A stretch of DNA of 54,773 nucleotides, taken from NCBI GenBank assembly GCA_024281055.1, contig JAMXLF010000001.1, positions 1 through 54,773 on the forward strand, given 5' to 3'. Below are positions 18,479 to 35,381 of this stretch, piece after piece. The DNA comes from Geobacteraceae bacterium (GTDB lineage: Bacteria > Desulfobacterota > Desulfuromonadia > Geobacterales > Geobacteraceae). The notes below the pieces were generated by a model that was not told the origin of the DNA, did not search any database, and saw nothing but the letters and a program-made list of their open reading frames with translations. Every line of letters begins with the position of its first letter. The stretch's first letter is position 1. The position numbers and the translations under genes are program-made.

Positions 18479-18566
18479 CTCTTTGCTACCTCTTATAAAA
18501 CCTGAGTGGTAGTCAGAGTTCAGAATCCGGAAGGTTATATTCCGGCTTCTGATTCCTGAATTCCGA

Positions 18567-20462: not shown

Positions 20463-21611
20463 TCACATGGCTTTGTGGAAGATGGTCTCGATGTCGTTTA
20501 TCCCCGCATTCCGCGGATTGGTCACCAGACAGGCGTCCTTGAGCGCGTTCCGGCTCAGGAGCGGAATGAACTCCGCCTTGAGGCCGATGTCCGCCAGCCC
20601 CTTGGCCAGGCCGACGTCAGCGATCAGCCGCTTCACCGCCTCGATGGAACGGGCCGCAGCGGCGCCGGGCTCCAGACCGGCGACCTCCTCTCCCATGGCA
20701 ATGGCGATGTCCCTGAAACGCTCGGGACAGGCGGGGAGGTTGAACTCCATGACGTGCGGGAGGATCGAGGCGTTGGTCTCCCCGTGGTGCTGGTCGATCA
20801 AGCCGTCCACCTGGTGGGTCATGGCGTGGGTAGCGCCGAGGATGGCGTTGGAAAATGCCAGCCCCGCGGTGAGGGCGGCCATGGCCATGTTCGTGTTCGC
20901 CTCCATGTCCCCGCGGTCGGCAACCGCTTTCCTCATATTCCGGGAAATGAGCTCGATCGCCTTGAGTGCGTGGATGTCGGTGAGCGGAGTTGCGGCCAGG
21001 GAGACGTACGATTCGATGCCGTGTGTCAGGGCGTCGAGGCCGGTGGCGGCGGCCAGCTTGGCGTCCTTGGTCTTCAGGAGCTCCGGGTCGACGATGGCGA
21101 TGTCCGGAACGAGCGATTTGGAGATGATGGACATCTTCAGCTTCCGCACCGTATCGACGATGATGGCGAACTGGCTCACCTCGGAACCGGCTCCGGCGGT
21201 GCTAGGGGCGATCACCATCGGCGGCAGGGGGTGGGTAATCTTGTTGATCCCCTCGTAATCCTGCAGCACCCCGCCGTTGGTAGCCAGGGTGGCAATCGCC
21301 TTGGCGACGTCGGTGGGGCTGCCGCCGCCGACGGCGACAATTCCGTCGCAGCCCGACTGCTGGTAGCGGACAACCCCCTCGATCACCTCGAAATCCTTGG
21401 GATTGGTGGAAAGGGCGGAGAATATCTCGGCCTCCAGACCTGCGGCGTGCAGGTAGTGCACGGCCTGGTCGACCCAGCCGGCATTGATGACGCCGTCGTC
21501 GCTGACGAGGAACACCTTGGAGACGCCGATGCGCACCAGGCTCTCACCGAGTTGGCTCAGGGAACCCCTGCCGAAGATGATTTCCGGGGCGACAAATTTG
21601 CTGATATTCAC
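20463..21611 (-). CDS. iron-containing (group III) alcohol dehydrogenase
   Basis: 382 residues from a GTG at 21611 with an AGGGAGGA site, giving the family length; a longer frame adds residues not found in homologues. NAD-binding GGGSPTDVAKAIA (about 97-109) and TAGAGSEVSQFAI. Metal ligands are in DALTHGIESY (Asp and His) and in HAMTHQVDGLIDQHHGETNASILP (two His). It oxidises an alcohol to an aldehyde with NAD or, in some members, a tightly bound nicotinamide reoxidised by mycofactocin. Its place at the end of a mycofactocin-AOR gene set favours the second role, which is inference. A sigma-54-like promoter precedes it. Confidence 0.88.
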   Translation of the reverse strand: MNISKFVAPEIIFGRGSLSQLGESLVRIGVSKVFLVSDDGVINAGWVDQAVHYLHAAGLEAEIFSALSTNPKDFEVIEGVVRYQQSGCDGIVAVGGGSPTDVAKAIATLATNGGVLQDYEGINKITHPLPPMVIAPSTAGAGSEVSQFAIIVDTVRKLKMSIISKSLVPDIAIVDPELLKTKDAKLAAATGLDALTHGIESYVSLAATPLTDIHALKAIELISRNMRKAVADRGDMEANTNMAMAALTAGLAFSNAILGATHAMTHQVDGLIDQHHGETNASILPHVMEFNLPACPERFRDIAIAMGEEVAGLEPGAAAARSIEAVKRLIADVGLAKGLADIGLKAEFIPLLSRNALKDACLVTNPRNAGINDIETIFHKAM

Positions 21612-21665
21612 ACATCCTCCCTGACACATTTGCCCATTTGGATAATGAGCTTGATCATTGTATAC

Positions 21666-21682
21666 ATGCAAATCCCATGCAC
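21666..21682 (-). promoter_or_regulatory. candidate sigma-54 promoter for the alcohol dehydrogenase
   Basis: The minus strand reads GTGCATGGGATTTGCAT. Against TGGCACG-N4-TTGCWT it keeps the G and C of the -24 block and the complete TTGCAT of -12, with the right spacing; the first G of the GG pair is T. It ends about 54 bases before the GTG start. It is weaker than the site before mftA. Confidence 0.5.
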
Positions 21683-21735
21683 ATTTCCGTCTGAGGGCTT
21701 CATCCGCGGACCCGGGCGAAGGAGCCTGGTCCGAC

Positions 21736-21764
21736 TGTAACAGTGCGATACACTATATGTTACA
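21736..21764. promoter_or_regulatory. inverted repeat upstream of the sigma-54 site (possible activator site)
   Basis: TGTAACA (21736-21742) and TGTTACA (21758-21764) are exact inverted half-sites with 15 bases between, centred about 68 bases upstream of the candidate -24 box. That position suits an enhancer-binding protein. The rest of the 401-base gap (21612-22012) holds no gene that I can support. Confidence 0.4.
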
Positions 21765-22012
21765 TTATAGAGCAAAATGGTCAAAAATGGTACTGTCCTG
21801 CACTTGTCCGCCTGGCCTAACTTACTGAAATCCAATGTGTTGTATTGATTGTGCGCGGGATTGCCGAGGGGGGAGGTCAATAGAAATTTCGGGCCTTCAG
21901 CAGCAGGAGCTGCTGCGGTGGGATGGTCTGGTAAACAGAGGCTGCAACAAAAGAGGAGCGCAAGGCTCCTCCTTGTGCGGCCAAATCCGAGGAAGGGAAG
22001 GGGAAGCCCCTG

Positions 22013-22306
22013 CTAGCGGGTGGCGTTGCGAATGCCGAGGAGAAAGCGGCCGGGGCCCGGGATACCTGTCGGGACGAAGGCGACCCGGTCGCCGGGCTGG
22101 ATGTGGTGATCGAGGCTGTAGGCTAGGTGATTGACGAAGACCGCCTCGATTTTTTCCAGGGGGAGGTCGAGCTCCCGGGCGAGATCCCGGGCCTCACATC
22201 CTTCCGGGGGCAGGTTCACCTCGGTCGTCGATTCCTGACCGCGTTCCTTCCGGAGCACGTGCAGTGCCCCGAACATCCGTACCGTTGTGGCAGTTTGCGT
22301 GGACAT
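22013..22306 (-). CDS. MoaD/ThiS-like ubiquitin-fold protein without a C-terminal Gly-Gly
   Basis: 97 residues from the ATG at 22306 (GAAAGGAG site). TTVRMFGALHVLRKERGQ and EVNLPPEGCEARDLARELDLPLEKIEAVFVNHLAYSLDHHIQPGDRVAFVP follow the beta-grasp MoaD pattern, including the late GDRVAFVP strand. The chain does not end in Gly-Gly but runs on to IPGPGRFLLGIRNATR. MoaD-type sulfur carriers need the terminal Gly-Gly for thiocarboxylation, so this one is either a structural paralogue or is processed. It belongs to the AOR set, next to a ThiF-like activating enzyme. Confidence 0.75.
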   Translation of the reverse strand: MSTQTATTVRMFGALHVLRKERGQESTTEVNLPPEGCEARDLARELDLPLEKIEAVFVNHLAYSLDHHIQPGDRVAFVPTGIPGPGRFLLGIRNATR

Positions 22307-22460
22307 GGCTGACTCCTTTCTTTCCGGTGGTTGGTGCGATGAGGGCTGTAGCAAGAGAAATTGGTTTTCTTTATAGGTCAAACGTTTGTTTGAATTAAGT
22401 CAATAATACCACCCTCCACTGAGAATGTAAACTGTTGTGTATACGAATTGTAAGAAAATT

Positions 22461-23318
22461 TTATGGTGATACTGCAGGCGTGGGCCGGAACCTGATTTCC
22501 TCGACCTTCATGTCCAGCAGGTTGATGAAGAGCAGCCGGTGGCGCAGGGTGTGTCCCTGTCCGAGGATGATCTTGCACGCCTCGGCCACCTGCAGGCTGG
22601 CCACCACGGCCGGGGTGAAGGAGGGGTTGCCGAACGTCGCCTCGACCCCCTTTGCGGTTCCCTGCAGTCCGGCAACGAGGTGAGAGATGTCGTCGCCGGG
22701 CAACTGGCTGGCTACCCGGCCGTACCAGCCGCCGATGGCCCCGTGGACAAGGGGGATGGCCATGTCCCGGCAGGTCTCGATCAACTCTATCCTGGCGGGA
22801 AAATTGTCCAGGCCGTCCATCACAACCGTCGCTCCGCACAGCAGTTCGGGACCCGTGTCCCGGGTAAACGCAGCCTTCCGGGGGGATACGGTGACGGCCG
22901 GGTTGACGGCCCGCACCCGCGCCGCAGCCACTTCGACCTTGGCGAGGCCGAGCGCGGCGGGAGCGGAGAGGAGCTGCCGGTTCAGGTTGTGCTCTTCGAA
23001 CACGTCCGGGTCGATACAGACGAGTTCCCCGACCCCCAGCCTCGCCAGTTCCTCGATGAGATACCCGCCCAGGCCGCCACAACCGATGACCACAACCCTG
23101 CTGCGAAAGAGCTGCAGCTGCTGTCCGGTGGAAATGGTCTCCCGGTTGCGCTGGTAACGGGCCGGCAGGAGCCCCATTTCCAGAGCGGTTTCTTCCACTT
23201 CGGCCAGGCTCAGGGAGAATCGTTCGGCGGCGGCCGCCTGCGCTGCCCAGGGCAACAGGTCGCCCCGGGCCTCTTCGAGAAGAAAAACGCGCAGATTGAC
23301 CGTGTCGTTAGTGTTCAT
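22461..23318 (-). CDS. ThiF/MoeB/HesA-family adenylyltransferase
   Basis: 285 residues. N-terminal helical region, then the nucleotide-binding VVIGCGGLGGYLIEEL (about 92-107), RLGVGELVCIDPDVFEEHNLNRQLL, GLAKVEVAAARVRAVNP, and DGLDNFPARIELIETC. This is the E1-like fold that adenylates the C-terminus of MoaD or ThiS proteins. I see no CXXC zinc pairs of the MoeB type. It lies among two MoaD-like genes and upstream of the alcohol dehydrogenase, in a set headed by AOR, so it probably activates the Gly-Gly MoaD for pterin cofactor assembly. Confidence 0.85.
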   Translation of the reverse strand: MNTNDTVNLRVFLLEEARGDLLPWAAQAAAAERFSLSLAEVEETALEMGLLPARYQRNRETISTGQQLQLFRSRVVVIGCGGLGGYLIEELARLGVGELVCIDPDVFEEHNLNRQLLSAPAALGLAKVEVAAARVRAVNPAVTVSPRKAAFTRDTGPELLCGATVVMDGLDNFPARIELIETCRDMAIPLVHGAIGGWYGRVASQLPGDDISHLVAGLQGTAKGVEATFGNPSFTPAVVASLQVAEACKIILGQGHTLRHRLLFINLLDMKVEEIRFRPTPAVSP

Positions 23319-23321
23319 ACT

Positions 23322-23549
23322 TTACTCTGCTCCCATGTCGCAGGGGAGGTGGATCAGGTCGCAACAGCGGCACTTTCCATAGCGCGCAGGGAGGTAGGTG
23401 ACGTTGACCGTGAGGCAGCTCTTGCATTGCCAGAAGCTGACGTCGGTGACTTCCCTGCCGGCGAGCTGGCTGTACAGCCAGCGATAGTAACCGTCCCAGT
23501 CAAACTCCGGGCATTGCCCGGCTTTTTCGGCCAGCTCTTCAAGTAGCAT
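23322..23549 (-). CDS. small Cys-rich protein of the AOR set
   Basis: 75 residues. An acidic helical N-terminus (LLEELAEKAGQCPEFDWDGYYRWLYSQLAG) precedes WQCKSCLTVNVTYLPARYGKCRCCDLIHLPC, i.e. CXXC, CXCC and a further Cys, the look of a treble-clef or zinc ribbon. It ends three bases before the ThiF-like gene and follows the 205-residue unknown gene, so it is operon-bound. The function is unknown; help in cofactor insertion or metal delivery is a guess. Confidence 0.65.
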   Translation of the reverse strand: MLLEELAEKAGQCPEFDWDGYYRWLYSQLAGREVTDVSFWQCKSCLTVNVTYLPARYGKCRCCDLIHLPCDMGAE

Positions 23550-23659
23550 CTCTCCCCCCTTGGCGAAAATGCATTCCGACGCTATGTCATCTCGGTCCCG
23601 CTCATCACCTTAAAGTCCTTTGTCCACGAAAGACACGAAACTCACGAAAAGAATCTCTC

Positions 23660-24277
23660 TCACCCTTTTTTCCTGAATAGTACGGTGAGCCCGACAGCCG
23701 CCGTGCCGGCAAATGTCTCTCCATTCTTGAGCGCCTTCGGTGCTACCAGCGTGTCGTCGAGAGTAGCCCTTGCGCATCCGCTCCAAAAATCCTGCTCCTG
23801 GTCCCGGAAGAACTCAATCGCCTCCGCACTTGTCAGCAGAATGCCGCGCCCGAGGAATTCGGGACCCAGCTCGGGGAGAAGGAGGTTGAAAAGCTTTACG
23901 CGGACCGTGCCGTCGCTGCTGCTGCCTGTCGTATCCTGCTCACCGAGGGTGATGGCACTGCGCATGGCAGCGTAGTAGCCGCCCCGCCGCATGGTTGCTC
24001 CGACCAGCCCCGGCATGGCGGCGGAGAGGGCAAGAAGCGCCCCGTTGCCGGCTACCGCCTTGTCGATGTTGTCGGTTGCTTTCCCGTTGAGGAAAATGGT
24101 CGTGATCCTCTCGGCGACGTAGCCGGCATCCATGCCGAACTGGTCGCAGAGAAGTTCCTTGACGGTACAGGGGACCCGGGCCGGTACGCCGAAGCCCTGC
24201 TGCAGGATCGGATAGAAACAGCCGAGCCGGTCCGCACCCATCGTCATCACAAGGCTTGCCTGCGGCACTCCGTTCAC
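23660..24277 (-). CDS. uncharacterised protein of the AOR set
   Basis: 205 residues from a GTG at 24277 with an AGGAGG site; 15 bases separate it from the MoaD stop. Notable segments are MGADRLGCFYPILQQGFGVPARVPCTVKELL, YVAERITTIFLNGKATDNIDKAVAGNGALLALSAAMPGLVGATMRRG and GTVRVKLFNLLLPELG. It has no signal peptide and no membrane helix. I recognise no fold. Its conserved setting between MoaD and a small Cys-rich protein suggests a part in maturing or regulating the AOR. It is not the creatininase-like MftE peptidase. Confidence 0.6.
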   Translation of the reverse strand: MNGVPQASLVMTMGADRLGCFYPILQQGFGVPARVPCTVKELLCDQFGMDAGYVAERITTIFLNGKATDNIDKAVAGNGALLALSAAMPGLVGATMRRGGYYAAMRSAITLGEQDTTGSSSDGTVRVKLFNLLLPELGPEFLGRGILLTSAEAIEFFRDQEQDFWSGCARATLDDTLVAPKALKNGETFAGTAAVGLTVLFRKKG

Positions 24278-24292
24278 CCCACCCTCCTGTTC

Positions 24293-24538
24293 CTACCCCC
24301 CGCCGATGGGAGGAAACATCCCGACCCGGTCGTTATCCTTCAGCACCCATTCCTCGTGTTCATGGTGGTTGTTGACCATCGAGAGGAGGGAAATGGCCGG
24401 GTCGATGGCGAGAATGGTGCGCAGCTCCCTGATGGTCGTTCCCTCGGGAACCTCCAGGTCGCATTCGCTCTGTCCGTAACAGGGAAGCTCGGGGTTGCCG
24501 CACCTCAGCCCGGCAAACAGTCGTATTTCCAGTTTCAT
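24293..24538 (-). CDS. MoaD-family sulfur carrier with a C-terminal Gly-Gly
   Basis: 81 residues: MKLEIRLFAGLR start, DLEVPEGTTIRELRTILAI, VLKDNDRVGMFPPIGGG end. The beta-grasp pattern and the terminal GG are intact, so it can be adenylated and thiocarboxylated. In molybdo/tungstopterin synthesis it would supply the dithiolene sulfurs together with MoaE. It follows the AOR gene after a terminator-like hairpin and a structured repeat, and it has its own AGGAGG-type site. Confidence 0.85.
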   Translation of the reverse strand: MKLEIRLFAGLRCGNPELPCYGQSECDLEVPEGTTIRELRTILAIDPAISLLSMVNNHHEHEEWVLKDNDRVGMFPPIGGG

Positions 24539-24580
24539 GGCATTCCTCCTGCCGCTATGCCATTTAGATTTGGGTTGATG

Positions 24581-24604
24581 AAAAGGCGGGGCGAATGCCC
24601 CGCC
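24581..24604 (-). terminator. intrinsic terminator downstream of AOR
   Basis: GGCGGGGC (24585-24592) and GCCCCGCC (24597-24604) form a perfect 8-bp stem with a four-base loop; the minus strand continues with TTTT. It lies between AOR and the downstream moaD, so moaD may depend on read-through or on another promoter. Confidence 0.8.
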
Positions 24605-24617
24605 ATTTTCGTTTTGC

Positions 24618-24752
24618 GGCGTTCAGATTTGCGTCAGGTCGGCGGCACCCGGAGGGGCTCCGCGGAGGCCTAGTACCCACAGGGCATAAACAGCGCTAGG
24701 CCGCACAAGGAAGTCCCGAGGATGACGTCGAGATGGCGCAAATATGGACGCC
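24618..24752. repeat. about 135-bp imperfect inverted-repeat element in the AOR-moaD gap
   Basis: The outer arms GGCGTTCAGATTTGCGTC (24618-24635) and GGCGCAAATATGGACGCC (24735-24752) are near-complementary. An inner perfect pair GGCCTAG/CTAGGCC frames TACCCACAGGGCATAAACAGCG, and CTCCGCGGAG lies beside it. No gene fits. It may be a dispersed repeat or a structured leader RNA. Confidence 0.6.
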
Positions 24753-24761
24753 GAGCTACGA

Positions 24762-26498
24762 CTACCAGTTGAATACTTCGTCCAACTCTTCATCCTTCAT
24801 CATAAAGGTCTGATTATGCGGCGCGATCGGCTCGGTGTAGAAGAAGCGCGGCAGCCGGTCGTGCTGCTTGGTGAAGCCTGCCCGGGCGTTGAAGTCCCGC
24901 TCGGCGGACAGCACTTTCTTGCCGAGGGCCACCACGTCGTCACCGGTCATGGTGATGCCGTAGAAGGCACCCAGCATGTCGAGGAGCGCCTGGAAGGTTT
25001 CCGGCTGGTCCATGATGGCGAAGGCGATGAAGAGGCACATGCCGGTGGAGTCGATGGCCGCGGTGGCGATCTGGAGGTTGCGGGAGAGCTCCACCTGCCC
25101 TTCGGTCTTCAGCGGGTCAACGTCGCCGCCGACCTTCAGGATGTTGGTGGCGATGGCATAGCCGGCGGTGTGGTCGGCTCCCATGGTGGTGGTGGCGTAG
25201 GTGACGCCGATCCCCTGGATGGCTCGCGGGTCGTAGGCGGGGAGGGCCTGGTCCTTCACCACCGGCACCCTTTCCACGCCGTAGACCTTGCCGGTCACCG
25301 CGGCACCGCAGCCGAGGACGCGGCCGAGGGGTGTCCCCTTGCCCACTTCCTCCATCAGACGAATCGCCCCTTCCTTGTCGCCGAACTCGATGATTCCCGC
25401 ATCCATGGCGACGCCGATGGTGACCCCCATCTCGATGGTGTCCACGCCGATGTTGTCGTCCATGAAGTCGAGCCGGGCCACGGTGTCCAGGTCATCGATG
25501 CCGCAGTGGCCGCCGTGGGACCAGACCGTCTCGTATTCCGGCTGCTTGGTGAGGTAGTGGCCGTCCTTGTCGTTGTAGATACCCGAGCACTGGATGACGC
25601 AACCGCGGTGACAGCCGTGGGTGGCAGTGCCGCCCCGCTTTATTTCCAGCTCGGCCTGGGCCTCGCCGGAGAGCTTGGCGGAGGTGGCAAACTGGCCGGT
25701 CTTGAAGTTGTACGTCGGATACCCCCCCGCCTCATTGAGGACGTTGGTGAGGACGTTGGTGCCGTAGGCGGGAAGACCCTCGCCGGTGACCGGGTGCTTG
25801 CGCAGACCTTCGACGAATTTCCGGTTGGCGTCCCGGTATTTTTCCGGCTCCTTCGGCGGGCGCATCTTCATGCCGGCGTCGTCGAGGATGATCGCCTTGA
25901 CGCCTTTCGCACCCATCACGGCGCCAACGCCGCCGCGGCCGCAGTGGCGGGTCGGGCGCAGTTCCGGGTCGGTGCAGGCGATGGAGGCCGCCAGGAGCTT
26001 CCGCTCGCCGGCGGTGCCGATGGTGATGTAGGCGACCTTGTCGCCATACTCCTTGCGGAGCTTGTCGACCAGCGGATAATTGTCGAGGAGCTTAAGGCTG
26101 TTGTCGACGCTGATCTGGATGCCGTCCTTGTTGACGTGGATCTTGTAGAGATCGTCGCTGGCCGGTTTCCCTTCGAGGATGATGGCGGCGTAGCCGAGCC
26201 GCGCCAGCACCTGGGCCGCCTGGCCGCCGGCGTTGGATTCCTTGATGGTGCCGGTAAGCGGGCTCTTGCATCCCACGGAAAGACGGCCGGTCATGGCGCC
26301 GGCGGTGCCGGAGAGCATCCCCGGGGCGAACACCAGCTTGTTCTCCGCTCCCAGGGCATGGCAGAGAGGATGCACTTCCTTGGCGATGAGGAGTGATGTC
26401 AACGCCCGGCCGCCGAGACCGACATACTCGCCGACCTCTTCCATCGTTACCTTCGGTCCGCCTGCCGCTCCCATGTCGATTCTTGCAATCTTGTCCAT
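24762..26498 (-). CDS. aor: tungsten/molybdenum aldehyde:ferredoxin oxidoreductase
   Basis: 578 residues from the ATG at 26498 (GGGGAGGAG site); a longer in-frame extension lies over repeats and is rejected. [4Fe-4S] ligands are C296, C300 and C304 (HGCHRGCVIQC) with C488 (DSTGMC). GRGGVGAVMG (188-197) and FNARAGFTKQHDRLP near 537-550 are AOR hallmarks that bind the bis-pterin. It oxidises aldehydes to acids and passes electrons to ferredoxin in the cytoplasm. The CX3CX3C form resembles the YdhV-type subfamily more than archaeal AOR. It forms a unit with two MoaD-like proteins and a ThiF-like enzyme and follows the mycofactocin genes. Confidence 0.93.
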   Translation of the reverse strand: MDKIARIDMGAAGGPKVTMEEVGEYVGLGGRALTSLLIAKEVHPLCHALGAENKLVFAPGMLSGTAGAMTGRLSVGCKSPLTGTIKESNAGGQAAQVLARLGYAAIILEGKPASDDLYKIHVNKDGIQISVDNSLKLLDNYPLVDKLRKEYGDKVAYITIGTAGERKLLAASIACTDPELRPTRHCGRGGVGAVMGAKGVKAIILDDAGMKMRPPKEPEKYRDANRKFVEGLRKHPVTGEGLPAYGTNVLTNVLNEAGGYPTYNFKTGQFATSAKLSGEAQAELEIKRGGTATHGCHRGCVIQCSGIYNDKDGHYLTKQPEYETVWSHGGHCGIDDLDTVARLDFMDDNIGVDTIEMGVTIGVAMDAGIIEFGDKEGAIRLMEEVGKGTPLGRVLGCGAAVTGKVYGVERVPVVKDQALPAYDPRAIQGIGVTYATTTMGADHTAGYAIATNILKVGGDVDPLKTEGQVELSRNLQIATAAIDSTGMCLFIAFAIMDQPETFQALLDMLGAFYGITMTGDDVVALGKKVLSAERDFNARAGFTKQHDRLPRFFYTEPIAPHNQTFMMKDEELDEVFNW

Positions 26499-26660
26499 AC
26501 TTGGTTCTCCTCCCCTTTCGTGTGAATGGTGTGGCAGCGTTGCCACGTGTATTCTCCTTTCCAGAGGGAGGCTCTGCCGTTTCCAGCAAAACCCATTGGC
26601 CTGGCACCGTGGGAGCGACCCGGTAGGCGTACAGGCTCGGAGAGAAATGATTGTTAAATT

Positions 26661-26734
26661 GTAGGGGCAACCCCGTGTGGTTGCCCATGCTGTTGATGGT
26701 CGAAGTTCGGGCGGCCACACGGGGCCGCCCCTAC
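26661..26734. repeat. GGGGCAACCCC/GGGGCCGCCCC repeat, copy 1
   Basis: Starts GTAGGGGCAACCCCGTGTGG and ends GGGGCCGCCCCTAC; the two halves are related palindromes. Other copies are at 29174-29231 and, shortened, at 54216-54245. The stop codon of mftF (26731-26733) lies within its last bases. Confidence 0.8.
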
Positions 26735-28164: not shown

Positions 28165-28180
28165 AATGAAAACCTTATTT

Positions 28181-28270
28181 TTTGCCACAGATAACTACCG
28201 ATAACTGCGGATTGAAAAACCACTATGTTTTCGACGTTATCCGTTGTTATCCGCCTTTATCTGTGGCCAA
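28181..28270. repeat. inverted repeat with GCCACAGATAA/TTATCTGTGGC ends
   Basis: About 90 bases with arms TTTGCCACAGATAA and TTATCTGTGGCCAAA and an A/T-richer middle containing two more TAAC/GTTATC motifs. It separates etfB from mftF and contains no gene. Confidence 0.75.
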
Positions 28271-28278
28271 ATATGCCG

Positions 28279-29160
28279 TTAGGTTACCAACCCCTCTTCG
28301 CTAAGTATCCGCCAGAGCCCCTCGACGGTGTCTTCGGCCGAAACTGAAAGGGTCCGCCCCTCGCGGGCCTTGATCCCGCCGGAGAGGAGGGAGATGATCC
28401 GTTCGAAGGCCGGGAGCTGCGGGTCGGGGGTCACGACCCGGACCGGGTCGGGTCGCGGTGCGCCGTATTCCGCCGTCGCAAGGTATGCTCCGGTGGCGCC
28501 GGCTTCCCAGAAAGGGAGTCCCAGGTCGGCCAGTTCCCACTCCTCGATGGAAGCGATCAGAGACGCGGTGACCGCCTCGACGGACGGATATCGGGGTGTG
28601 GCGCCCTCGTCGAAGAGAACCGCGCAGGGAAAGGGTGCGGCAACCACCTGCCGTGAGCCCCGGTCCCCTTTGCGCAGCCCCTCGACGCCGTTCTTGTTCA
28701 GGGTGAGGGAGATGGCGGCACCGATGCACGGCATGTCGACGGCTGCAGCGGCCAGCGCCGGCACCGGGTCATCCCCCCGGTCCGCCAGTCGGTTGCCGGT
28801 GAAGACGAGGGTGGGGGAGAGGATGGTCAGAATCCGGGCAAGGCTCCGGGTGTCGGCCACGGCATCCCCACCTTCGAGACCGTGGTCCCAGAAGCGGATC
28901 CCCCGGTCGGCCCCCATGGAGAAGGCGAGGCGGAGCGTATCGTCGAGGCGCGCTGGGCCGACGGCGAGGACGGTCACCCGGGCGCCGAGCCGGTCCTTGA
29001 GGACAAGGGCTTCTTCCAGGGCAACGAGGTCGGCCGGGTTCGGCACGCGCCGCAGGCCGCGGTCGCTGATGCCCGCTCCCCGCGTGATGACGCGGGCAGG
29101 AGGGCGGGGGTCGCTCACTTCGCGGAGGAGGACGAGAATATGCAGGTCTTTGTAGGACAT
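28279..29160 (-). CDS. etfB: electron transfer flavoprotein beta subunit, mycofactocin-associated
   Basis: 293 residues from the ATG at 29160. LHILVLLREVSDPRPPARVITRG, NPADLVALEEALVLKDRLGARVTVLAVGP, ALRLAFSMGADRGIRFWD and RILTILSPTLVFTGNRLADRGDDPVPALAAAAVDMPCIGAA follow the ETF beta fold with its AMP/FAD-binding region. With EtfA it should accept electrons from a dehydrogenase and pass them to the FixC-like protein. Unusually, etfA and etfB are split by fixC and the ferredoxin gene. I recall that such ETFs are a recognised mycofactocin-linked clade. Confidence 0.85.
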   Translation of the reverse strand: MSYKDLHILVLLREVSDPRPPARVITRGAGISDRGLRRVPNPADLVALEEALVLKDRLGARVTVLAVGPARLDDTLRLAFSMGADRGIRFWDHGLEGGDAVADTRSLARILTILSPTLVFTGNRLADRGDDPVPALAAAAVDMPCIGAAISLTLNKNGVEGLRKGDRGSRQVVAAPFPCAVLFDEGATPRYPSVEAVTASLIASIEEWELADLGLPFWEAGATGAYLATAEYGAPRPDPVRVVTPDPQLPAFERIISLLSGGIKAREGRTLSVSAEDTVEGLWRILSEEGLVT

Positions 29161-29173
29161 GATTTGTTCCTTG

Positions 29174-29231
29174 GTAGGGGCAACCCCCTGTGGTTGCCCT
29201 GAATCGGGCGGCCACAAGGGGCCGCCCCTAC
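29174..29231. repeat. GGGGCAACCCC/GGGGCCGCCCC repeat, copy 2
   Basis: Same start and end motifs as 26661-26734 with a shorter centre. It fills the gap between the ferredoxin and etfB genes. Confidence 0.8.
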
Positions 29232-29243
29232 ATTGATTTGCCT

Positions 29244-29522
29244 TTACGTCATTCTATACGCCACCCCGAACCCCCCGCGCGGGTAGCGCCAGCGGGTGAA
29301 GGCGTTGCGGTGGCAGACGATGTAGCAGGTGCCGCATTCGAGGCAGCCGTCGTGGACGAAGGTCATCTTCTGCTCTTCCTCGGACCAGGTGTAGCAGCGG
29401 GCCGGGCAGGAGTTGGTGCAGCCGCGGTTGTCACAGCCGACGCAGACCTGGGGGTCGAGGACGATGTGGGGTTCCCGGTCGATGGTGAAACTGGTGAAGT
29501 CGAATATCTCATCTATGTTCAT
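29244..29522 (-). CDS. FixX-like 2[4Fe-4S] ferredoxin
   Basis: 92 residues from the ATG at 29522, which overlaps the fixC-like stop by four bases (ATGA). Cysteine groups are CVGCDNRGCTNSCPARC and CLECGTCYIVC, giving enough ligands for a FixX/ETF-QO-type cluster arrangement. FixX partners FixC in passing electrons from ETF to quinone or to low-potential acceptors. The translational coupling with fixC supports a complex. Confidence 0.88.
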   Translation of the reverse strand: MNIDEIFDFTSFTIDREPHIVLDPQVCVGCDNRGCTNSCPARCYTWSEEEQKMTFVHDGCLECGTCYIVCHRNAFTRWRYPRGGFGVAYRMT

Positions 29523-30817
29523 AATGCCCTCCATGCGGTGAGGGCGTCGGAGATGGCGTTTTTCAGGCCGACCTTCTCCTTCACTTCCCGCAGGATGAGT
29601 TTGGGGATGCTCGTCTTGGGTGTGCCGTCGATGCGGTAGATGTGTTCCATCATGCTGCAGACCAGTTCCGGGTACTCATTGTAGATCCGGTCGATGTGGA
29701 GCATGCCGGGAGCGTTGCGGAAGCCCTTCAGGTCCTGCATCACCCAGCTCAGGTCGAGCCGTTCCTTGTACCGCCTGAGCGTCTTTGCGGAGAAATCGTT
29801 GCGCTCGTGTGCCTCGATTACGGTCCTCCCCGCCAGGATGCCGGAGTGGGAGGCGAGGTTGATCCCTTCCAGGTTGACGCCGGTGGCGTTGCAGAGTGCC
29901 GCGGCGTCGCCGGCGACGAGGATGCCGTTGCCGACCAGTTCCGGGATCATCTTGTAGCCCCCTTCGGGGATGACGTGGGCCGAATATTCCTGCAGCCGTC
30001 CCCCCCGCACCAGCTTTGCCACCTGCGGCTGCTCCATGAACGCATTGAGGAGGTCGTAGGGGGTCTTGCCGCTGGTGCGCAGGCTTCCGAGGTGGAAGAC
30101 CAGGCCGATGGAGAGGGAGTCGTAGTTGGTGTAGAGGAAACCGCCGCCGCGAACGCCACCGGTGCAGCCGACGAACTCGTTGGCGAAACCCTGGTCCCGC
30201 ACCAGCCCGAAGCGGTCGTCGATCATCTCCCGCGGCATGTCGATCAGTGCCTTGACTCCCACGGCCATCTGTCCGGCGTCGAATTTCGGCTGCCTGAGCC
30301 CCGCCTTCTTGGCCGTGAACGACAGGACACCGTCGGCGGCGATTACTACCGGGGCTTCGATCTGACCCGTGCGTCCCAGGATGGAGACCCCGGCGATCCG
30401 GCCATTCTTGTGGACCAGGTCGTCCACCGTGGCGCGGGTGATCAGGGTGGCGCCGGCCTTGATGGCCTCATCGGCCAGCCAGCTGTCGAAACGGGGACGG
30501 AAGACGGTGTAGCCGTTATAGGGGGCGCGGTCGAAATTGACGGTTTCGTGCTGGACGTGGAAGCTGGCCTCCCCCGTCATGAAGGTGGTCCCCTTCTTGG
30601 CGATGTGCCGCTCCAGCGGCGCGTTGTGCCAGAACTCGGGGAGGACCTCTTCGATGGAGGTCATGCGGTGCAGGATGCCGCCGAACATGTTCTTCTCGCC
30701 GGGGAAGGTGCCGCGCTCCACGAGGGCCACGTCCAGCCCGGCCCGGGCCATGGTGAGCGCCGCCGAAGAGCCGGCAGGCCCTGCACCGACGACGATTGCC
30801 TGATACTGTTTGCTCAT
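29519..30817 (-). CDS. FixC / ETF:quinone-oxidoreductase-like flavoprotein
   Basis: 432 residues. FAD-binding AIVVGAGPAGSSAALTMARAGLDVALVERG (about 7-36), KNMFGGILHRM after it, GRIAGVSILGRTGQIEAPVVIAADGVLS in the middle, and NGILVAGDAAALCNATGVNLEGINLASHSGILAG (about 290-323). These are FixC/ETF-QO features; it should accept electrons from the ETF and reduce menaquinone, with the next gene as its ferredoxin. ATGA overlaps link etfA-fixC-ferredoxin, so the three are translated together. Confidence 0.9.
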   Translation of the reverse strand: MSKQYQAIVVGAGPAGSSAALTMARAGLDVALVERGTFPGEKNMFGGILHRMTSIEEVLPEFWHNAPLERHIAKKGTTFMTGEASFHVQHETVNFDRAPYNGYTVFRPRFDSWLADEAIKAGATLITRATVDDLVHKNGRIAGVSILGRTGQIEAPVVIAADGVLSFTAKKAGLRQPKFDAGQMAVGVKALIDMPREMIDDRFGLVRDQGFANEFVGCTGGVRGGGFLYTNYDSLSIGLVFHLGSLRTSGKTPYDLLNAFMEQPQVAKLVRGGRLQEYSAHVIPEGGYKMIPELVGNGILVAGDAAALCNATGVNLEGINLASHSGILAGRTVIEAHERNDFSAKTLRRYKERLDLSWVMQDLKGFRNAPGMLHIDRIYNEYPELVCSMMEHIYRIDGTPKTSIPKLILREVKEKVGLKNAISDALTAWRAL

Positions 30818-31818
30818 GCTGCACCTCCAGCGGTCGCTTTTGCCCGTTCCAGGAGGCGCGGCAGCACTTCCTTCAGGTCGGCAACGAATCCCTCGTCACA
30901 GTTGGGAAAGATGGGGGCCTTCGGGTCGATGTTCACCGCCACGATCCGGCGGGAGTCCTTGATTCCACCCACGTGGTGCATGGAGCCGGAGATGCCGAGG
31001 GCCACGTAGAGCCGGGGGGTGACGGTGCGGCCGGTCTGGCCGACCATCCGCTCGAAGCCGGTCCACCCCAGGTCGAAGACCGGCCGGGTGACGCCGAAGG
31101 AGACGTTGAGGAGCCGGCAGAGCTCCTTCAACTGCTCGAAGGTCGCTGGGTCGCACCCCTTGCCGGCGCTGAAGATCACTTCCGCCTCGGTGAGGTCGAC
31201 GGTCTGCGGGTCGGGGGGGATGCGGCCGGTGACGCGCGCCACTTCATTGTCCGCCGGTACAGCGGGTTGCCAGATAGCCACTGTCGGAGAACTGGGGCGG
31301 ACGGTCGGCATGAGCACCTGGCTCAGGTTGCGTGTCGGGACGGTAATGACCAGGGGACGGCTGCCGTCCCAGGTTTTTGTCTCCGCCACCCGGGCACCGA
31401 GGGCCTGCCGGGAGAGGCGAATGCCTTCCTGGCCACGCCGGACGGTCGTCACCTCGGTGAGGATGGCGGCGTCGAGGGCCGCGGCGATGACCGGCGCCAG
31501 GGTCGTGCCCAGGTCGTTGTGGGGAAGGACGACAACCGCCGCCTCCCTCTCCCGGGCCAATTGTGCCAGGGCCTTGCCGAGGAGAGCGGGTGTGTCCAGG
31601 AGGAGATCGCCGCCGGCAATGGCGGTAACCGTCGGCGCACCGTAGCTGGCGAACCCGGCCAGCTGTTCCCCCTCGGGAGCGATCGGGGTGACCGCTTCCC
31701 ACGGGGCGTCCACGATGCCGGTCAGGCGTCCGCCGTAGGAAAGGAGCCCCCGGCCGGTCTCGTCCAGCTCACCGCCGGGGAAATCGACGAACACGAGGAT
31801 TTTTCCGGTTGCTGCCAT
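30814..31818 (-). CDS. etfA: electron transfer flavoprotein alpha subunit, mycofactocin-associated
   Basis: 334 residues. ILVFVDFPGGELDETGRGLLSYG begins it; residues 205-334 hold the FAD domain (VTGRIPPDPQTVDLTEAEVIFSAGKGCD, FGVTRPVFDLGWTGFERMVGQTGRTVTPRLYVALGISGSMHH, SRRIVAVNIDPKAPIF). The motif VGQTGRTV-P-LYVALGISG is diagnostic for EtfA. Its start overlaps the stop of the FadH-like gene by one base (TGATG) and its stop overlaps fixC, so translation is coupled. Confidence 0.93.
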   Translation of the reverse strand: MAATGKILVFVDFPGGELDETGRGLLSYGGRLTGIVDAPWEAVTPIAPEGEQLAGFASYGAPTVTAIAGGDLLLDTPALLGKALAQLAREREAAVVVLPHNDLGTTLAPVIAAALDAAILTEVTTVRRGQEGIRLSRQALGARVAETKTWDGSRPLVITVPTRNLSQVLMPTVRPSSPTVAIWQPAVPADNEVARVTGRIPPDPQTVDLTEAEVIFSAGKGCDPATFEQLKELCRLLNVSFGVTRPVFDLGWTGFERMVGQTGRTVTPRLYVALGISGSMHHVGGIKDSRRIVAVNIDPKAPIFPNCDEGFVADLKEVLPRLLERAKATAGGAA

Positions 31819-33779
31819 CAGATCTCCCTCCCGACACGGTGCCCTTCCCAGATGGCCATGTCGACCTTGCGGGGGGCGACGGAATCGCCGATCCGGTAGA
31901 GCTCAGGCACCTTCCCCTTGAGGCTCATGTAGAGGTCGTCGTTCACCTTCTGCCCCATGGCCAGGACGACGGTGTCGTACGGTCCCCACTCAGCCCACTG
32001 GTTGGAGTAGACGTTGAACCCCTTGATGGTCTTCGCTCCCGCTTCGCCGGCGATTTCCATCACGGCGATGTCGGGGGTGAAGGTGACCCCCTTCTGGAGG
32101 AGCCGCTGCCGGGAAAGGTAGAGGTCCTGGGTGGGTCCGAGCTCCGCGCCGATGAAGAGGCTGGAGGTGATCATGTGGACCGTTTTCCCCTGGTTGGCGA
32201 GGAATTCGGCCGTGGCGGTGGCGCGCTGGTGGCCGTCGTAATCGATGAGGCAGACATTCGCCCCGAGCTCGACCTCGCCGTTCAGCACCTGCCAGACGTT
32301 ACAGACAGCCGGGCCGTCGGCCCCGCCCACCGGATGCTCCTTGGGACGGCTCCCGGTGGCGACGATGACCACGTCAGGCTTCTCGGTCTGGACCAGTTCC
32401 GGCGTCACTTCGACCCCGAGTTTCACCTGGGCGCCGGCCTTGCTCACCTGCTCCTTTTCGTTCCGGGCGATGACGCCGAACTCGTCGCGCCCCGCCCCCT
32501 TCATGGCAGTGAGGACCTGGCCGCCGAGGGTTTCGTTGCGGTCGTAGAGGGTGACTTTATGCCCGCGCCGGCCGGCCATCTTGGCCGCCCACATGCCACC
32601 CGGGCCGCCGCCGACGATCATCACCTTTTTCTTCACGGCCGCCTTCTCCAGGGTCCCTTCGCCCCATTCCTTTTCCCGGCCGACCGCCGGGTTCTGGATG
32701 CAGCCGATGGACTTGTTGAGGCCGATCCGGCCGATGCACCCCTGGTTGTCGGCGACGCAGTAGCGGATGTCGTCCAGCCGTCCTTCCAGCGCCTTTTTCG
32801 GCATGAACGGGTCGCAGATGAGGGCGCGACACATGCCGATCATGTCGGCCTGGCCGGCGGCCAGCACCTTCTCGGCCATGACCGGGTCGTTGATCCGGCC
32901 GGTGCAGAAGACCGGGAGCTTGATCTTTTCCCGCACGCCTGCTGCCAGCGGAATGGTGTAGCCGAGCGGCGTGTGCATGGAGCCTTCCACCAGGTAGAGG
33001 TTGTAGAAGGTGGCGATGGAGAGGTCCATGAAGTCGATGAGACCGCTTGCTTCGAAGCGGGCGCAGATCTCCTGGACCTGGCCGAGGTCGAGTCCGCCGG
33101 GGATCATCTCGTCGGCGCACATCCGGATACCGAGGGTAAAGTCGTTCCCCACGGCCTTGCGCACTGCGGCGATGAACTTGAGGGGGGCGCGCATCCGGTT
33201 TTCCAGACTCCCGCCGAACTCGTCGCTGCGGAAGTTGGTGAGCGGCGAGAGGAACTGGCGGGCGAGGCTCGAATGGCCGAACTGGATCTCGACCCCGTCG
33301 AAGCCCCCCTCGCGGACGTGGATGGCGCTCTTGGCGAAGTAGCGGGCCACTTCCTCGATGTCCTCCGGCTCCATCTCCTTCGGGGTCTCCCGGAAGAGGA
33401 CGTCGGGGATGGGGGAGGGTGCCCAGACCGGAAGGCGGGAGTTGGAGCCGTCCCCCTGCTGGCCGTTATGGTTCAGCTGGGCGAAGATATGGGCGTCGAA
33501 CTGATGGACGTAGTCGGTGATCTTCTTGAAGCCGGGGATCACCTCCTTATGGTAGACGTCGATCAGCTTCTCGTAGGCCATGTCCGTCGGGTGGACCGTC
33601 AGCTCCTCGGTGATGATGAGGCCGGCACCCCCCTTGGCCCGCTCGCCCCAGTAGTACATCTGCCGCTCGCTGGGGAGGTTGTCCACGGCCAGGTTGGTCA
33701 GGTGCGGCTGGAAGGAGATCCGGTTCTTCACCTCGACCGTGCCCAGCTTGACGGGGGAAAATAGATAGGGGAACATCAT
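31818..33779 (-). CDS. mycofactocin-system FadH/OYE-family flavin oxidoreductase
   Basis: 653 residues from the ATG at 33779 (AGGAG site). An N-terminal old-yellow-enzyme barrel (FSPVKLGTVEVKNRI, AQLNHNGQQG, FGHSSLARQFLSPLTNFRSDEFGGSLENRMR) is followed by an Fe-S region, then two Rossmann domains (KVMIVGGGPGGMWAAKMAGRRGHKVTLYD and VELGANVCLIDYDGHQRATATAEFLA). It resembles 2,4-dienoyl-CoA reductase and trimethylamine dehydrogenase. The iron-sulfur motif is C341-X2-D344-X3-C348-X11-C360: the second ligand is Asp instead of Cys. Coupled to etfA, it is the probable hub moving electrons between mycofactocin (or NADH) and ETF; this role is inferred. Confidence 0.88.
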   Translation of the reverse strand: MMFPYLFSPVKLGTVEVKNRISFQPHLTNLAVDNLPSERQMYYWGERAKGGAGLIITEELTVHPTDMAYEKLIDVYHKEVIPGFKKITDYVHQFDAHIFAQLNHNGQQGDGSNSRLPVWAPSPIPDVLFRETPKEMEPEDIEEVARYFAKSAIHVREGGFDGVEIQFGHSSLARQFLSPLTNFRSDEFGGSLENRMRAPLKFIAAVRKAVGNDFTLGIRMCADEMIPGGLDLGQVQEICARFEASGLIDFMDLSIATFYNLYLVEGSMHTPLGYTIPLAAGVREKIKLPVFCTGRINDPVMAEKVLAAGQADMIGMCRALICDPFMPKKALEGRLDDIRYCVADNQGCIGRIGLNKSIGCIQNPAVGREKEWGEGTLEKAAVKKKVMIVGGGPGGMWAAKMAGRRGHKVTLYDRNETLGGQVLTAMKGAGRDEFGVIARNEKEQVSKAGAQVKLGVEVTPELVQTEKPDVVIVATGSRPKEHPVGGADGPAVCNVWQVLNGEVELGANVCLIDYDGHQRATATAEFLANQGKTVHMITSSLFIGAELGPTQDLYLSRQRLLQKGVTFTPDIAVMEIAGEAGAKTIKGFNVYSNQWAEWGPYDTVVLAMGQKVNDDLYMSLKGKVPELYRIGDSVAPRKVDMAIWEGHRVGREI

Positions 33780-33818
33780 GGTTGTGGCTCCTGTAAATGG
33801 AAATTGGCTATGCTTTTC

Positions 33819-33900
33819 CACCCTCCCCCTCGCCCCCTCCCATAAAGGGCGGGGGAATTACCCCCTCTCCCCTTGTGGGAGAGGGTCGGGGAGAGGGGGA
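33819..33900. repeat. CCCTCCCC-type palindromic repeat
   Basis: CACCCTCCCCCTCGCCCCCT, then CCCCCTCTCCCCTTGTGGGAGAGGG and GGGGAGAGGGGG. It lies between mftC and the FadH-like gene, inside the presumed operon. Confidence 0.7.
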
Positions 33901-33905
33901 TTTGT

Positions 33906-34949
33906 TTACGCGGCCTTCGCCGTCTTATTCGCGTCGGCGATGGAGGTCACGCAGCGCTCCAGGCACTCGGGATCACCGCCGTTGATGTCGTTTTTCAGGT
34001 GCCAGGCAACGGCCGGACAGCCGCCGTGGCACTGGTCGAAGCGGTTGCACTCCTCGCAGGAGTGGATTCGCAGGTTGCGGAACGATTCGTAGATCTCCGA
34101 GCTGTCCCAGATCTCCTGGAAGGTGTTTTCTCTGAGCGAGCCCGCCTTGAAACGGTCGGTCTGGAGAAAGGCGCAGGGGTACATGTTGCCGGTCGGCCCC
34201 ACGCAGCAGGTGAGCTTGGCCGCACCGCAGAGGTTCAGGCCCAGTCCCTGGCGTTCCTGTGAGGTTAGGGAGAAGAAACTGTCGCCGGTCCGCACGTCGC
34301 CGCTGTTAGCCAGCCAGTCTGAGAAGGCGAGGAGCTGGGCGGGGGAGGGGCGGAGCGCTTCCCAGTTGTCCGCTCCCCGTCCCGACGGACGGAAGCGGCT
34401 TACCCGTAGCGATACGCCGAGGGTGCGGGCCATCTCGTGCATGGCCGGAATCTCGTCGGCGTTCTGGGCGGTAAGTACCGTGTTGATGCTCGTGGGGATT
34501 GAACTGGCGGCCAGGATCCGGAGGGCCGTGATGGCCTTGTCGAAGACCCCCTTGCCGCGAATGGCGTCGCAGGTCTCCCTGGTGGCGCCGTCCATGCTTA
34601 CCTGGATGGCGACCAGGCGGGTTGCGGCGAGCCGCTCCACCAGGCGGCGGTCGATGAGCGTGCCGTTGGTGGAGATACAGGTCATGATCCCCCTGGTGTG
34701 GCAGGCCTCCAGAATATCCTCGAAGTCTTTGCGGAGGAACGGTTCGCCGCCGCCGAAATTGATCTGAAAGACCCCCGCCTGGTGCACCTGCTCCACCAGG
34801 TCGAGAGCCTCGGCCGTGGAGAGCTCGCCGGCGGCGGGCTCTCCGGAGGCCGAAAGGCAAGTGGTGCAGCGGAGGTTGCAGGCCAGGGATACTTCCCAAG
34901 TCAGGTTTACCGGGGCGCGCAGCCCCATCTCAACATAACGATTGCTCAC
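33906..34949 (-). CDS. mftC: mycofactocin radical SAM maturase
   Basis: 347 residues. The radical SAM cluster motif is C24-X3-C28-X2-C31 in LACNLRCTTCLS. INFGGGEPFLRKDFEDIL is the SAM-binding GGEP motif, and the C-terminal SPASM domain carries LCGAAKLTCCVGPTGNMYPC and CEECNRFDQCHGGCPAVAWH for auxiliary clusters. MftC decarboxylates the MftA C-terminal Tyr and joins it to the penultimate Val, starting the cofactor. Its start lies 20 bases inside mftB, so the two are coupled. All expected cysteines are present. Confidence 0.95.
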   Translation of the reverse strand: MSNRYVEMGLRAPVNLTWEVSLACNLRCTTCLSASGEPAAGELSTAEALDLVEQVHQAGVFQINFGGGEPFLRKDFEDILEACHTRGIMTCISTNGTLIDRRLVERLAATRLVAIQVSMDGATRETCDAIRGKGVFDKAITALRILAASSIPTSINTVLTAQNADEIPAMHEMARTLGVSLRVSRFRPSGRGADNWEALRPSPAQLLAFSDWLANSGDVRTGDSFFSLTSQERQGLGLNLCGAAKLTCCVGPTGNMYPCAFLQTDRFKAGSLRENTFQEIWDSSEIYESFRNLRIHSCEECNRFDQCHGGCPAVAWHLKNDINGGDPECLERCVTSIADANKTAKAA

Positions 34950-35193
34950 GGAGAAACCCCTTTTCTAGAAGTTGCGCGACGAACTTCTGTAGTGCCTTCT
35001 TCTGATTCTCGGTCAGCCCCTCGGGGAATTCGTCCTTGCCCCGGACGCTCCCGTAGAAGTCGACGGGAAGAAGGCTGCCGGTTTCGGCGAAGAGAAGGCG
35101 CGGCCCCCTGGCATCATAAAACAGGAGGCCGAACCCTTCCTGCCGAACGCGGCAGGCGGGGTGCAGCCGTATGCCTGCACCTGCCGCCGCCAT
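34930..35193 (-). CDS. mftB: mycofactocin precursor-binding chaperone
   Basis: 87 residues from the ATG at 35193, one base after the mftA stop; a longer frame overlapping mftA is rejected. IRLHPACRVRQEGFGLLFYDARGPRLLFAET is the usual MftB start, followed by a helical region (LTENQKKALQKFVAQLLEKGFL). MftB is a PqqD-like RRE domain that binds MftA and presents it to MftC. The gene lies between mftA and mftC. Confidence 0.93.
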   Translation of the reverse strand: MAAAGAGIRLHPACRVRQEGFGLLFYDARGPRLLFAETGSLLPVDFYGSVRGKDEFPEGLTENQKKALQKFVAQLLEKGFLREQSLC

Positions 35194-35194
35194 C

Positions 35195-35302
35195 TCAGTA
35201 CACCCCGCAGATGCCGTCGATGGCAAGTTCTTCCACCTGGATTTCCTCCAGGATGCGGGGCTCTTCGGTGCACGTTTCGGTTACGATTTTTTCAGCTTCC
35301 AT
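35195..35302 (-). CDS. mftA: mycofactocin precursor peptide
   Basis: A 35-residue frame from the ATG at 35302 (AGGAG seven bases before it) to TGA at 35195-35197. It is acidic (MEAEKIVTET start, ILEEIQVEEL middle) and ends AIDGICGVY. The C-terminal IDGxCGVY is the defining mark of MftA: the final Val-Tyr pair is cross-linked by MftC and becomes the redox cofactor. Ile replaces the usual Met before Cys. It is immediately followed by mftB, and a sigma-54 promoter lies 63 bases upstream. This tiny gene is easily missed by gene finders. Confidence 0.95.
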   Translation of the reverse strand: MEAEKIVTETCTEEPRILEEIQVEELAIDGICGVY

Positions 35303-35364
35303 TGTTTTTCTCCTTTGCTGTTCTTTTTGCATCGCTTCCACGATGCGTGGTTTGATAACCCATA

Positions 35365-35381
35365 TTGCAACCGGGATGCCA
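35365..35381 (-). promoter_or_regulatory. sigma-54 (-24/-12) promoter of the mycofactocin operon
   Basis: The minus strand reads TGGCATCCCGGTTGCAA, which matches TGGCAC-N5-TTGCWW at all but one conserved position, with GG and GC ten bases apart. It lies 63 bases before the mftA ATG. The sigma-54 activator encoded at 16955-18478 is a candidate regulator. The A/T-rich sequence from 35382 to 35620 could hold activator sites, but I can define none. Confidence 0.85.

Follow-up and report, generated by a model that had tools for sequence, protein, structure and literature searches.

The DNA considered here, positions 1-54,773 of contig JAMXLF010000001.1 from a Geobacteraceae bacterium (assembly GCA_024281055.1; this whole stretch of 54,773 nucleotides is termed the window), carries on its minus strand a biosynthetic gene cluster for the cofactor mycofactocin (MFT), followed by a gene for a predicted tungsten aldehyde:ferredoxin oxidoreductase (AOR). 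Reading from 35302 to 22013, the gene order is mftA, mftB, mftC, OYE_2, etfA, fixC, fixX, etfB, mftF, AOR, a MoaD-like gene, genes for a 205-residue protein and a 75-residue protein with four cysteines, ThiF and a second MoaD-like gene. Curated models and Pfam recovered, on this strand and in these places, the genes that an initial annotation of the DNA had named. MftA, MftB, MftC, MftF and OYE_2 score above curated cut-offs, and the remaining genes were assigned through Pfam or weaker matches.

The 35-residue precursor MftA (35195-35302), which ends in IDGICGVY, scores 42.6 bits against TIGR03969 (cut-off 25), the chaperone MftB (34930-35193) 68.6 bits against TIGR03967 (cut-off 33), the radical SAM maturase MftC (33906-34949) 344 bits against TIGR03962 (cut-off 265) and the glycosyltransferase MftF (26731-28161) 383 bits against TIGR03965 (cut-off 280). 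The set of four markers, which according to the available text of PMC3023750 occurs in every mycofactocin cluster, is therefore complete. Between mftC and mftF lies OYE_2 (31818-33779; the listed open reading frame starts at 33821), a FadH/OYE-family Fe-S flavoenzyme with 980 bits against TIGR03997 (cut-off 793). It is followed by etfA (30814-31818; Pfam ETF_alpha and ETF, nearest solved structure 7koe), a gene for a FixC-like quinone oxidoreductase of electron transfer flavoprotein (ETF) (29519-30817; 367 and 359 bits with the PRK10015 and FixC models, below their cut-offs), one for a FixX-like ferredoxin with Fer4 domains (29244-29534; 57.5 bits with the FixX model, below cut-off) and etfB (28279-29163; listed open reading frame start 29217; nearest solved structure 1o94, chain C). 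The best NCBIfam matches of EtfA and EtfB are the mycofactocin-associated ETF models, both below cut-off (149 against 240 bits, and 75 against 200 with TIGR04503, respectively), and the genes for EtfA, EtfB, FixC and FixX are grouped together as in the FixABCX gene set. In the Fe-S motif of OYE_2 the second Cys is replaced by Asp (CVADNQGC) in the window and in several relatives, while most carry CIACNQGC, a natural Cys/Asp ligand variation.

The AOR gene (24762-26498) encodes 578 residues with Pfam AFOR_N and AFOR_C; its listed open reading frame, from 26891, overlaps mftF, and 26498 is the likely start. The alignment places T247, E323, Y422 and H443 at Thr243, Glu313, Tyr427 and His448 of PfAOR, residues listed for aldehyde oxidisers in the accessible part of PMC13328260. 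The four Fe-S cysteines are also retained, with a first spacing of C-x3-C rather than C-x2-C, and the first of them aligns in 49 of 52 AORs linked to mft genes. A scan of the minus-strand neighbours revealed no gene for a small Fe-S, NAD or bifurcating subunit beside the AOR, as in Class I tungsten oxidoreductases (WOR). Downstream are the first MoaD/ThiS-like protein, with a C-terminal GGG (24293-24538; 31.6 bits with Pfam ThiS, and 27.5 bits with the moaD model, below cut-off), the 205-residue protein (23660-24277), the 75-residue protein, whose four cysteines near the C-terminus may form a zinc ribbon (23322-23549), a ThiF/MoeB-like adenylyltransferase (22461-23318; Pfam ThiF, 160 bits) and the second MoaD/ThiS-like protein (22013-22309; ThiS 21.4 bits, slightly below cut-off). 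The 205-residue protein matches no family; its model has a predicted local distance difference test score (pLDDT) of 91 and no Foldseek match at E ≤ 0.001. The top matches of the predicted structure are ThiS/MoaD chains, weak at Z 2.1-4.1, so that it may possess a ThiS/MoaD-like beta-grasp domain, and it accompanies AOR outside mft clusters as well.

The conservation of this arrangement was assessed among 277 Desulfuromonadia genomes, 57 of which contain an MftC above cut-off. One stretch around each of these 57 mftC genes, the window included, was read with tblastn (the loci and genomes compared bear L and G numbers below). Thirteen stretches stop before mftF, 40 extend at least 2.5 kb past it and four have less room. 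A same-strand AOR gene occurs downstream of mftF in 38 of the 40 clusters with room, in 34 of them within 1.7 kb; one of the four shorter stretches (L037) ends inside an AOR gene and the others (L036, L129 and L141) end earlier, so that 39 clusters with AOR were available in total. The genome of Geobacter argillaceus ATCC BAA-1139 is among those carrying such a cluster (L030). OYE_2, etfA, fixC, fixX and etfB are present in 38 of these 39; the exceptional cluster, L148, consists of mftABC, mftF, AOR and the genes for the 205-residue protein and ThiF, and the AOR link holds there too. The later genes vary (205-residue protein in 34 clusters, ThiF in 28, first MoaD in 25 and the 75-residue protein in 6). 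We rejected the mere presence of AOR in a genome as evidence: it is found in 239 of the 277 genomes (57 of 57 with mycofactocin and 182 of 220 without), and adjacency is consequently what counts.

Other genes occasionally accompany these clusters. Between mftF and AOR, L027 carries at 8040-9152 a gene matching NosP (nitric-oxide-sensing, FIST-like; 261 bits, below cut-off), with look-alikes, judged by eye, in L035 and L039; a NosP homologue is also listed for the Pseudomonas ped alcohol cluster in the part of PMC12997753 consulted. The same gap in L171 contains LarB of the nickel pincer cofactor (7047-7928; 299 bits, above cut-off), with a gene resembling LarC beside it. In L131 mftF is followed by a gene for an additional radical SAM protein (7707-8840), for which no family exceeded its cut-off among the matches listed; similar genes occur in L129, L155 and L160, and the proteins have about 380-400 residues.

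The gap between mftF and AOR in the window harbors an aptamer of the molybdenum/tungsten cofactor (Moco/Tuco) riboswitch family (RF01055; 26538-26654, minus strand), which scored 61 bits against a gathering threshold of 36 in a search of positions 14000-42000. The P3 columns of the RF01055 alignment are deleted in it, as in the Tuco-type subclass, and about 3 nucleotides stand between P2 and P4 in place of P3 in all 25 aligned aptamers. Moco RNAs without P3 associate with tungsten-cofactor metabolism according to the available text of PMC2408646, and from the absent P3 we propose that the window riboswitch is of the tungsten-cofactor type. A search of 43 mft genomes with RF01055, whose strict filters make the count a lower bound, located the riboswitch between mftF and AOR in at least 34 of the 39 clusters having both; a further genome, G018, has it after mftF, where the contig stops. 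No RF01055 match was obtained in the gap of the five remaining clusters (L130, L135, L148, L149 and L155), and a custom aptamer model gives weak matches directly upstream of AOR in L130, L135 and L155. The same custom model matches just 4 of 52 AOR loci without nearby mft genes (L066, L068, L069 and L074), and the aptamer thus marks these lineages, not the AOR cassette everywhere. A 36-nucleotide repeat, GTAGGGGCAACCCC, occurs twice in intergenic gaps of the cluster, at 26651-26686, just before the riboswitch, and at 29164-29199.

The AOR relatives compared were the best 80, sampled starting from the window AOR, and many of them have no nearby mft genes. The complete set of AOR, 205-residue protein, MoaD and ThiF was found in Spirochaetota (L098, L099, L100 and L111) and Nitrospirota (L106), with partial sets elsewhere, and the cassette occurs away from mft genes in Nitrospirota, Spirochaetota and Syntrophobacteraceae. 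In family f11 (L123, L125 and L127) mftC is 78% identical to that of the window but the AOR only 55-57%; the f11 AORs are instead 79-80% identical to AORs directly after an iron alcohol dehydrogenase (Fe-ADH) gene in Geobacterales. Judged from these identities, the mycofactocin slot of f11 holds an AOR type that elsewhere is placed behind an alcohol dehydrogenase. In the AOR tree 11-12 label changes are needed, against a least forced number of 7, and long branches join there; owing to these branches and to the sampling seeded by the window AOR, independent recruitment of AOR is argued mainly from f11.

The window's own genome also contains, on contig C65, a locus (L208:2705-7348) composed of Fe-ADH, riboswitch, AOR, MoaD, ThiF and a second riboswitch, with no adjoining mft genes, the gene content of which is that of a predicted alcohol-to-acid operon. 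The order ADH-riboswitch-AOR recurs in 7 of 10 stretches from genomes with mycofactocin (L208, L210 and L212-L216) and 11 of 12 from genomes without it (L218-L228, not L229), fractions which provide no rate, the stretches having been pre-selected by an ADH or riboswitch match in the former genomes and by an ADH match in the latter. L230, a second locus of G020, shows ADH-AOR with no riboswitch match.

MftD, MftE and MftG were each above cut-off in none of 58 genomes, 17 of which have mftC; the best scores were 116 of the required 471 bits, 131 of 172 and 30 of 387, respectively. As described in the portions of PMC3023750 and PMC11778925 consulted, these three proteins belong to the mycobacterial type, are not universal and hence are not defining. 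Creatininase-family matches were rejected as MftE candidates, being present in 47 of the 58 genomes regardless of mftC and never reaching the cut-off. MftD-model matches were likewise rejected as MftD; they occur in 47 of 58 genomes, all far below cut-off, and also in 13 of 14 control genomes. In mycobacteria MftG ties MFT to respiration, and about 25% of MftC-containing genomes are without MftG, its replacement being stated as open (PMC11778925, in its available part). Across the 277 genomes OYE_2 above cut-off coincides with mftC (52 with both, 5 with mftC only, 6 with OYE_2 only and 214 with neither; Fisher p 2e-43, uncorrected for kinship). The solved-structure relatives of OYE_2 include trimethylamine dehydrogenase (TMADH), an enzyme that passes electrons to ETF, and the nearest solved relative of EtfB is the ETF of entry 1o94, an entry that also contains TMADH. 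With no MftD, MftE or MftG above cut-off, the OYE_2-ETF-FixCX module likely takes the place of MftG as the electron outlet, and the anaerobic path through ETF and FixC predicted in the initial annotation agrees with the lack of any MftG above cut-off. The DGDTAQVGP stretch of the 5ol2 EtfB, which we take to be diagnostic of the bifurcating type (second FAD in EtfB), aligns with DRGDDPVPA in the window EtfB.

Upstream of mftA the window contains a sigma-54 (-24/-12) promoter sequence, TGGCATCCCGGTTGC (minus strand, read from 35381 to 35367). The strict pattern occurs three times in the window against about 2.1 expected, and the single site, taken by itself as it had been originally, is not significant. 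Among 53 clusters, 52 have a counterpart of it 73-105 nucleotides ahead of mftA, against 1.2 expected from shuffles (57 stretches, 4 of them not countable; the pattern was picked after the window had been seen). The coupled starts reported for the whole island apply, fully or nearly, to mftA-B-C, to OYE-etfA-fixC-fixX and to a few later pairs, but the other gaps measure 80-398 nucleotides. The gap separating AOR from the first MoaD-like gene contains a terminator-like hairpin (24604-24585); hairpins of this kind are no commoner here than in shuffles (14 versus 15.8). The gene for an iron-containing alcohol dehydrogenase (20463-21614) begins 398 nucleotides past the second MoaD-like gene and probably opens a separate unit together with the histidine kinase and sigma-54 regulator genes downstream of it. 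The island originally drawn as one unit is linked across relatives from mft through AOR, but probably does not extend to this dehydrogenase.

The dehydrogenase, ErcA-like and associated with the cluster rather than part of its core, scores 474 bits with the ErcA model NF041833, below the equivalog cut-off of 550. Its minus-strand companions are a GAF/PAS histidine kinase (18567-20225; Pfam, and an AtoS-like NCBIfam match of 228 bits, below cut-off) and a sigma-54 response regulator (16955-18634; Pfam Sigma54_activat and Response_reg). Homologues of the ADH with at least 80% identity are found in 17 of 58 genomes including that of the window (the G055 copy is partial, at a contig end), and in all 17 a kinase 67-100% identical adjoins the ADH copy read. 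In G054, a genome without mft genes, the trio adjoins the ADH-AOR operon of L218. The available text of PMC3023750 describes an NAD-site motif like TSNPKDYEVH for mycofactocin-dependent Fe-ADHs, confined to mft genomes; the window ADH carries STNPKDFEV, and NPKD is kept in genomes without mft genes too, so that the motif does not assign it to that group. The initial annotation had counted this ADH as part of the island. We rejected it as a core mycofactocin enzyme, given that just 3 of the 57 cluster stretches (the window, L033 and L125) contain an ADH with identity of 70% or more and that 8 of the 17 genomes sharing it do not have mftC. The trio resembles an ErcA/ErcS-like alcohol-sensing regulator, in which the ADH may be the sensor. 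Further out, an IS256-family transposase gene lies upstream of the island (38359-39573) and a prismane/hydroxylamine-reductase-like gene downstream (14713-16500).

Considered together, the genes point to an anaerobic version of alcohol oxidation by the mycofactocin system, a reading we regard as rather probable. Nicotinoprotein alcohol dehydrogenases, several Fe-ADHs being encoded nearby or elsewhere, would reduce MFT; OYE_2 would re-oxidize MFTH2 and, substituting for MftG, pass the electrons through EtfAB and FixCX into the quinone pool, a path favored by the absence of MftG above cut-off; and the tungsten AOR would use ferredoxin in oxidizing the aldehyde to the acid. The riboswitch would tune AOR expression to tungsten-cofactor status, and the ADH-kinase-sigma-54 regulator trio would sense alcohol or aldehyde and switch the operon on. 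More tentatively, and with slightly less than even confidence, we suggest an oxygen-free mycofactocin with its own biosynthesis and outlet, lacking MftD, MftE and MftG, in which OYE_2 either completes the cofactor or re-oxidizes it into ETF-FixCX and quinone, and in which an RNA switch couples alcohol oxidation by a cofactor of the ribosomally synthesized and post-translationally modified peptide (RiPP) class to tungsten supply.

Several observations weigh against this interpretation. Within Desulfuromonadia, L124 (3.1 kb of room) and L160 (5.7 kb) have no AOR, AORs are common in the class irrespective of mycofactocin, and G141 and G145 keep mftABC-F with no OYE_2 above cut-off, so that OYE_2-ETF cannot be the sole outlet. 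The adjoining ADH is not specific to mycofactocin, as the eight genomes without mftC attest. Of 50 genomes with an AOR of the window clade away from mft genes, 42 have no MftC above cut-off, and we therefore rejected the notion that this AOR clade is mycofactocin-specific; Fe-ADH-AOR operons likewise exist without mycofactocin, and hence AOR is also used independently of it. Beyond the class, 18 of 395 genomes of the phylum pass the MftC cut-off, 13 of them outside Desulfuromonadia with 15 clusters, and a clear same-strand AOR (at least 45% identity) is present in only 5 of the 15, upstream of mftA in L163, L164 and L168 and downstream in L171 and L174. L177 ends in an AOR fragment, L172 shows only a 29% AOR and L176 only a 28% one on the opposite strand, and 7 of the 15 show no AOR in the stretch read, some stretches being short. 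Desulfuromonadia show a strong link between mft and AOR, conserved there far more often than chance would allow, and outside the class it loosens. The initial annotation had advanced this link as new, naming relatives that keep mftABC without the AOR and dehydrogenase genes as the contrary case. For AOR the contrary case does not apply, as the relatives keep AOR beside mftABC-F, and the proposal stands for the class but weakens outside it; for the iron ADH it does apply.

It is conceivable that OYE_2, ETF/FixCX and/or AOR perform an oxygen-independent step of peptide maturation and not the re-oxidation of MFTH2. Such a role would suit the position of the OYE_2/ETF/FixCX genes between mftC and mftF, the presence of mftC in 52 of 58 OYE_2 genomes, and the absence above cut-off, in the 58 genomes searched, of both the peptidase MftE and the deaminating flavoenzyme MftD. 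We nevertheless hold it to be unlikely, for G141 and G145 possess mftABC-F with no OYE_2 above cut-off, the clusters of L171 and L148 are without OYE/ETF, AOR occurs by itself in genomes that have no MftC above cut-off, and a TMADH-like dehydrogenase feeding ETF is better suited to re-oxidation. The riboswitch-AOR-MoaD-ThiF segment could also be a mobile tungsten module, functionally unconnected with mycofactocin, that merely came to lie after mftF in an ancestor. The cassette is indeed modular, residing without nearby mft genes in the three taxa mentioned above and also behind Fe-ADH genes, and AOR-MoaD-MoeB clusters were earlier proposed to be mobile (PMC1779556, available text). Mere hitchhiking is nonetheless improbable in our estimation when AOR is kept in 38 of the 40 clusters with room and the riboswitch in at least 34 of 39, a different AOR fills the slot in f11, and other classes have AORs of another clade on the upstream side of mftA (L163, L164 and L168).

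AOR chemistry is reversible, and the same gene set would fit both directions: AOR could turn acids into aldehydes with low-potential ferredoxin, from which mycofactocin-dependent dehydrogenases would make alcohols, the island serving to dump electrons. Metal-reducing bacteria, however, respire organic donors, and the ETF-FixCX path ends at quinone, which serves oxidation as an electron sink. Moreover, mycofactocin has been linked in G. pickeringii to the use, by oxidation, of methanol (PMC4358379, available text). We consider this reductive direction very improbable and retain the anaerobic alcohol-oxidation system as the preferred reading.

The window cluster shares with the mycobacterial mycofactocin system (mftABCDEF, with MftG as outlet) an MftA ending in IDGxCGVY, MftB, MftC and MftF, but has no MftD, MftE or MftG above cut-off, and contains instead OYE_2-ETF-FixCX, a tungsten AOR with riboswitch and a sigma-54 promoter. 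A 2011 paper already described mycofactocin alongside Fe-dependent dehydrogenases in Geobacter (PMC3023750), and the clusters of Geobacter uraniireducens and Pelotomaculum treated there resemble that of the window as a deltaproteobacterial cluster with such dehydrogenases. In the available text of that paper tungsten, OYE, FadH and electron transfer flavoprotein are not named, and 'aldehyde oxidoreductase' appears solely within the title of a cited work; its Figure 2 may show some of these genes. AOR, ThiS/MoaD-like and ThiF genes also occur together in the AOR-MoaD-MoeB mobile cluster (PMC1779556) and in Class I WOR with WorX/ThiF, which has a single large subunit (PMC13328260), whereas here they continue the gene order of a mycofactocin cluster and are accompanied by the 205-residue partner; neither paper mentions mycofactocin in its accessible text. 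Tuco-type Moco RNAs are similarly P3-lacking aptamers upstream of a tungsten enzyme gene (PMC2408646), but that of the window is embedded, downstream of mftF, among the genes of a cofactor cluster, and the consulted part of that paper does not mention mycofactocin. The ErcA/ErcS ethanol-regulation pair of Pseudomonas (PMC12997753, in part) likewise has an Fe-ADH gene adjoining a histidine kinase; the window ADH, by contrast, is below the ErcA cut-off, and its kinase has no receiver domain in the Pfam scan and is paired with a sigma-54 regulator.

In the literature searched, which excludes most subscription papers, no paper was found that connects mycofactocin to ETF, to a riboswitch or to aldehyde ferredoxin oxidoreductase. 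Two papers name both mycofactocin and tungsten, the tungsten there, in the text available, being that of formate dehydrogenase, medium or molybdopterin and not of AOR. The association of mycofactocin with Fe-dehydrogenases in Geobacter and the clustering of AOR, MoaD and MoeB are already published, and the linkage to AOR, riboswitch and ETF looks new.

The gene set suggests how mycofactocin may work without oxygen. It offers a concrete candidate for the replacement of MftG in a culturable anaerobe, and raises the question of how mycofactocin is completed without MftD and MftE. Only five of 92 tungsten oxidoreductase clades have a physiological role, according to the available text of PMC13328260, and the cluster suggests one for a further clade, in which a peptide-derived cofactor would be tied to tungsten via a riboswitch.

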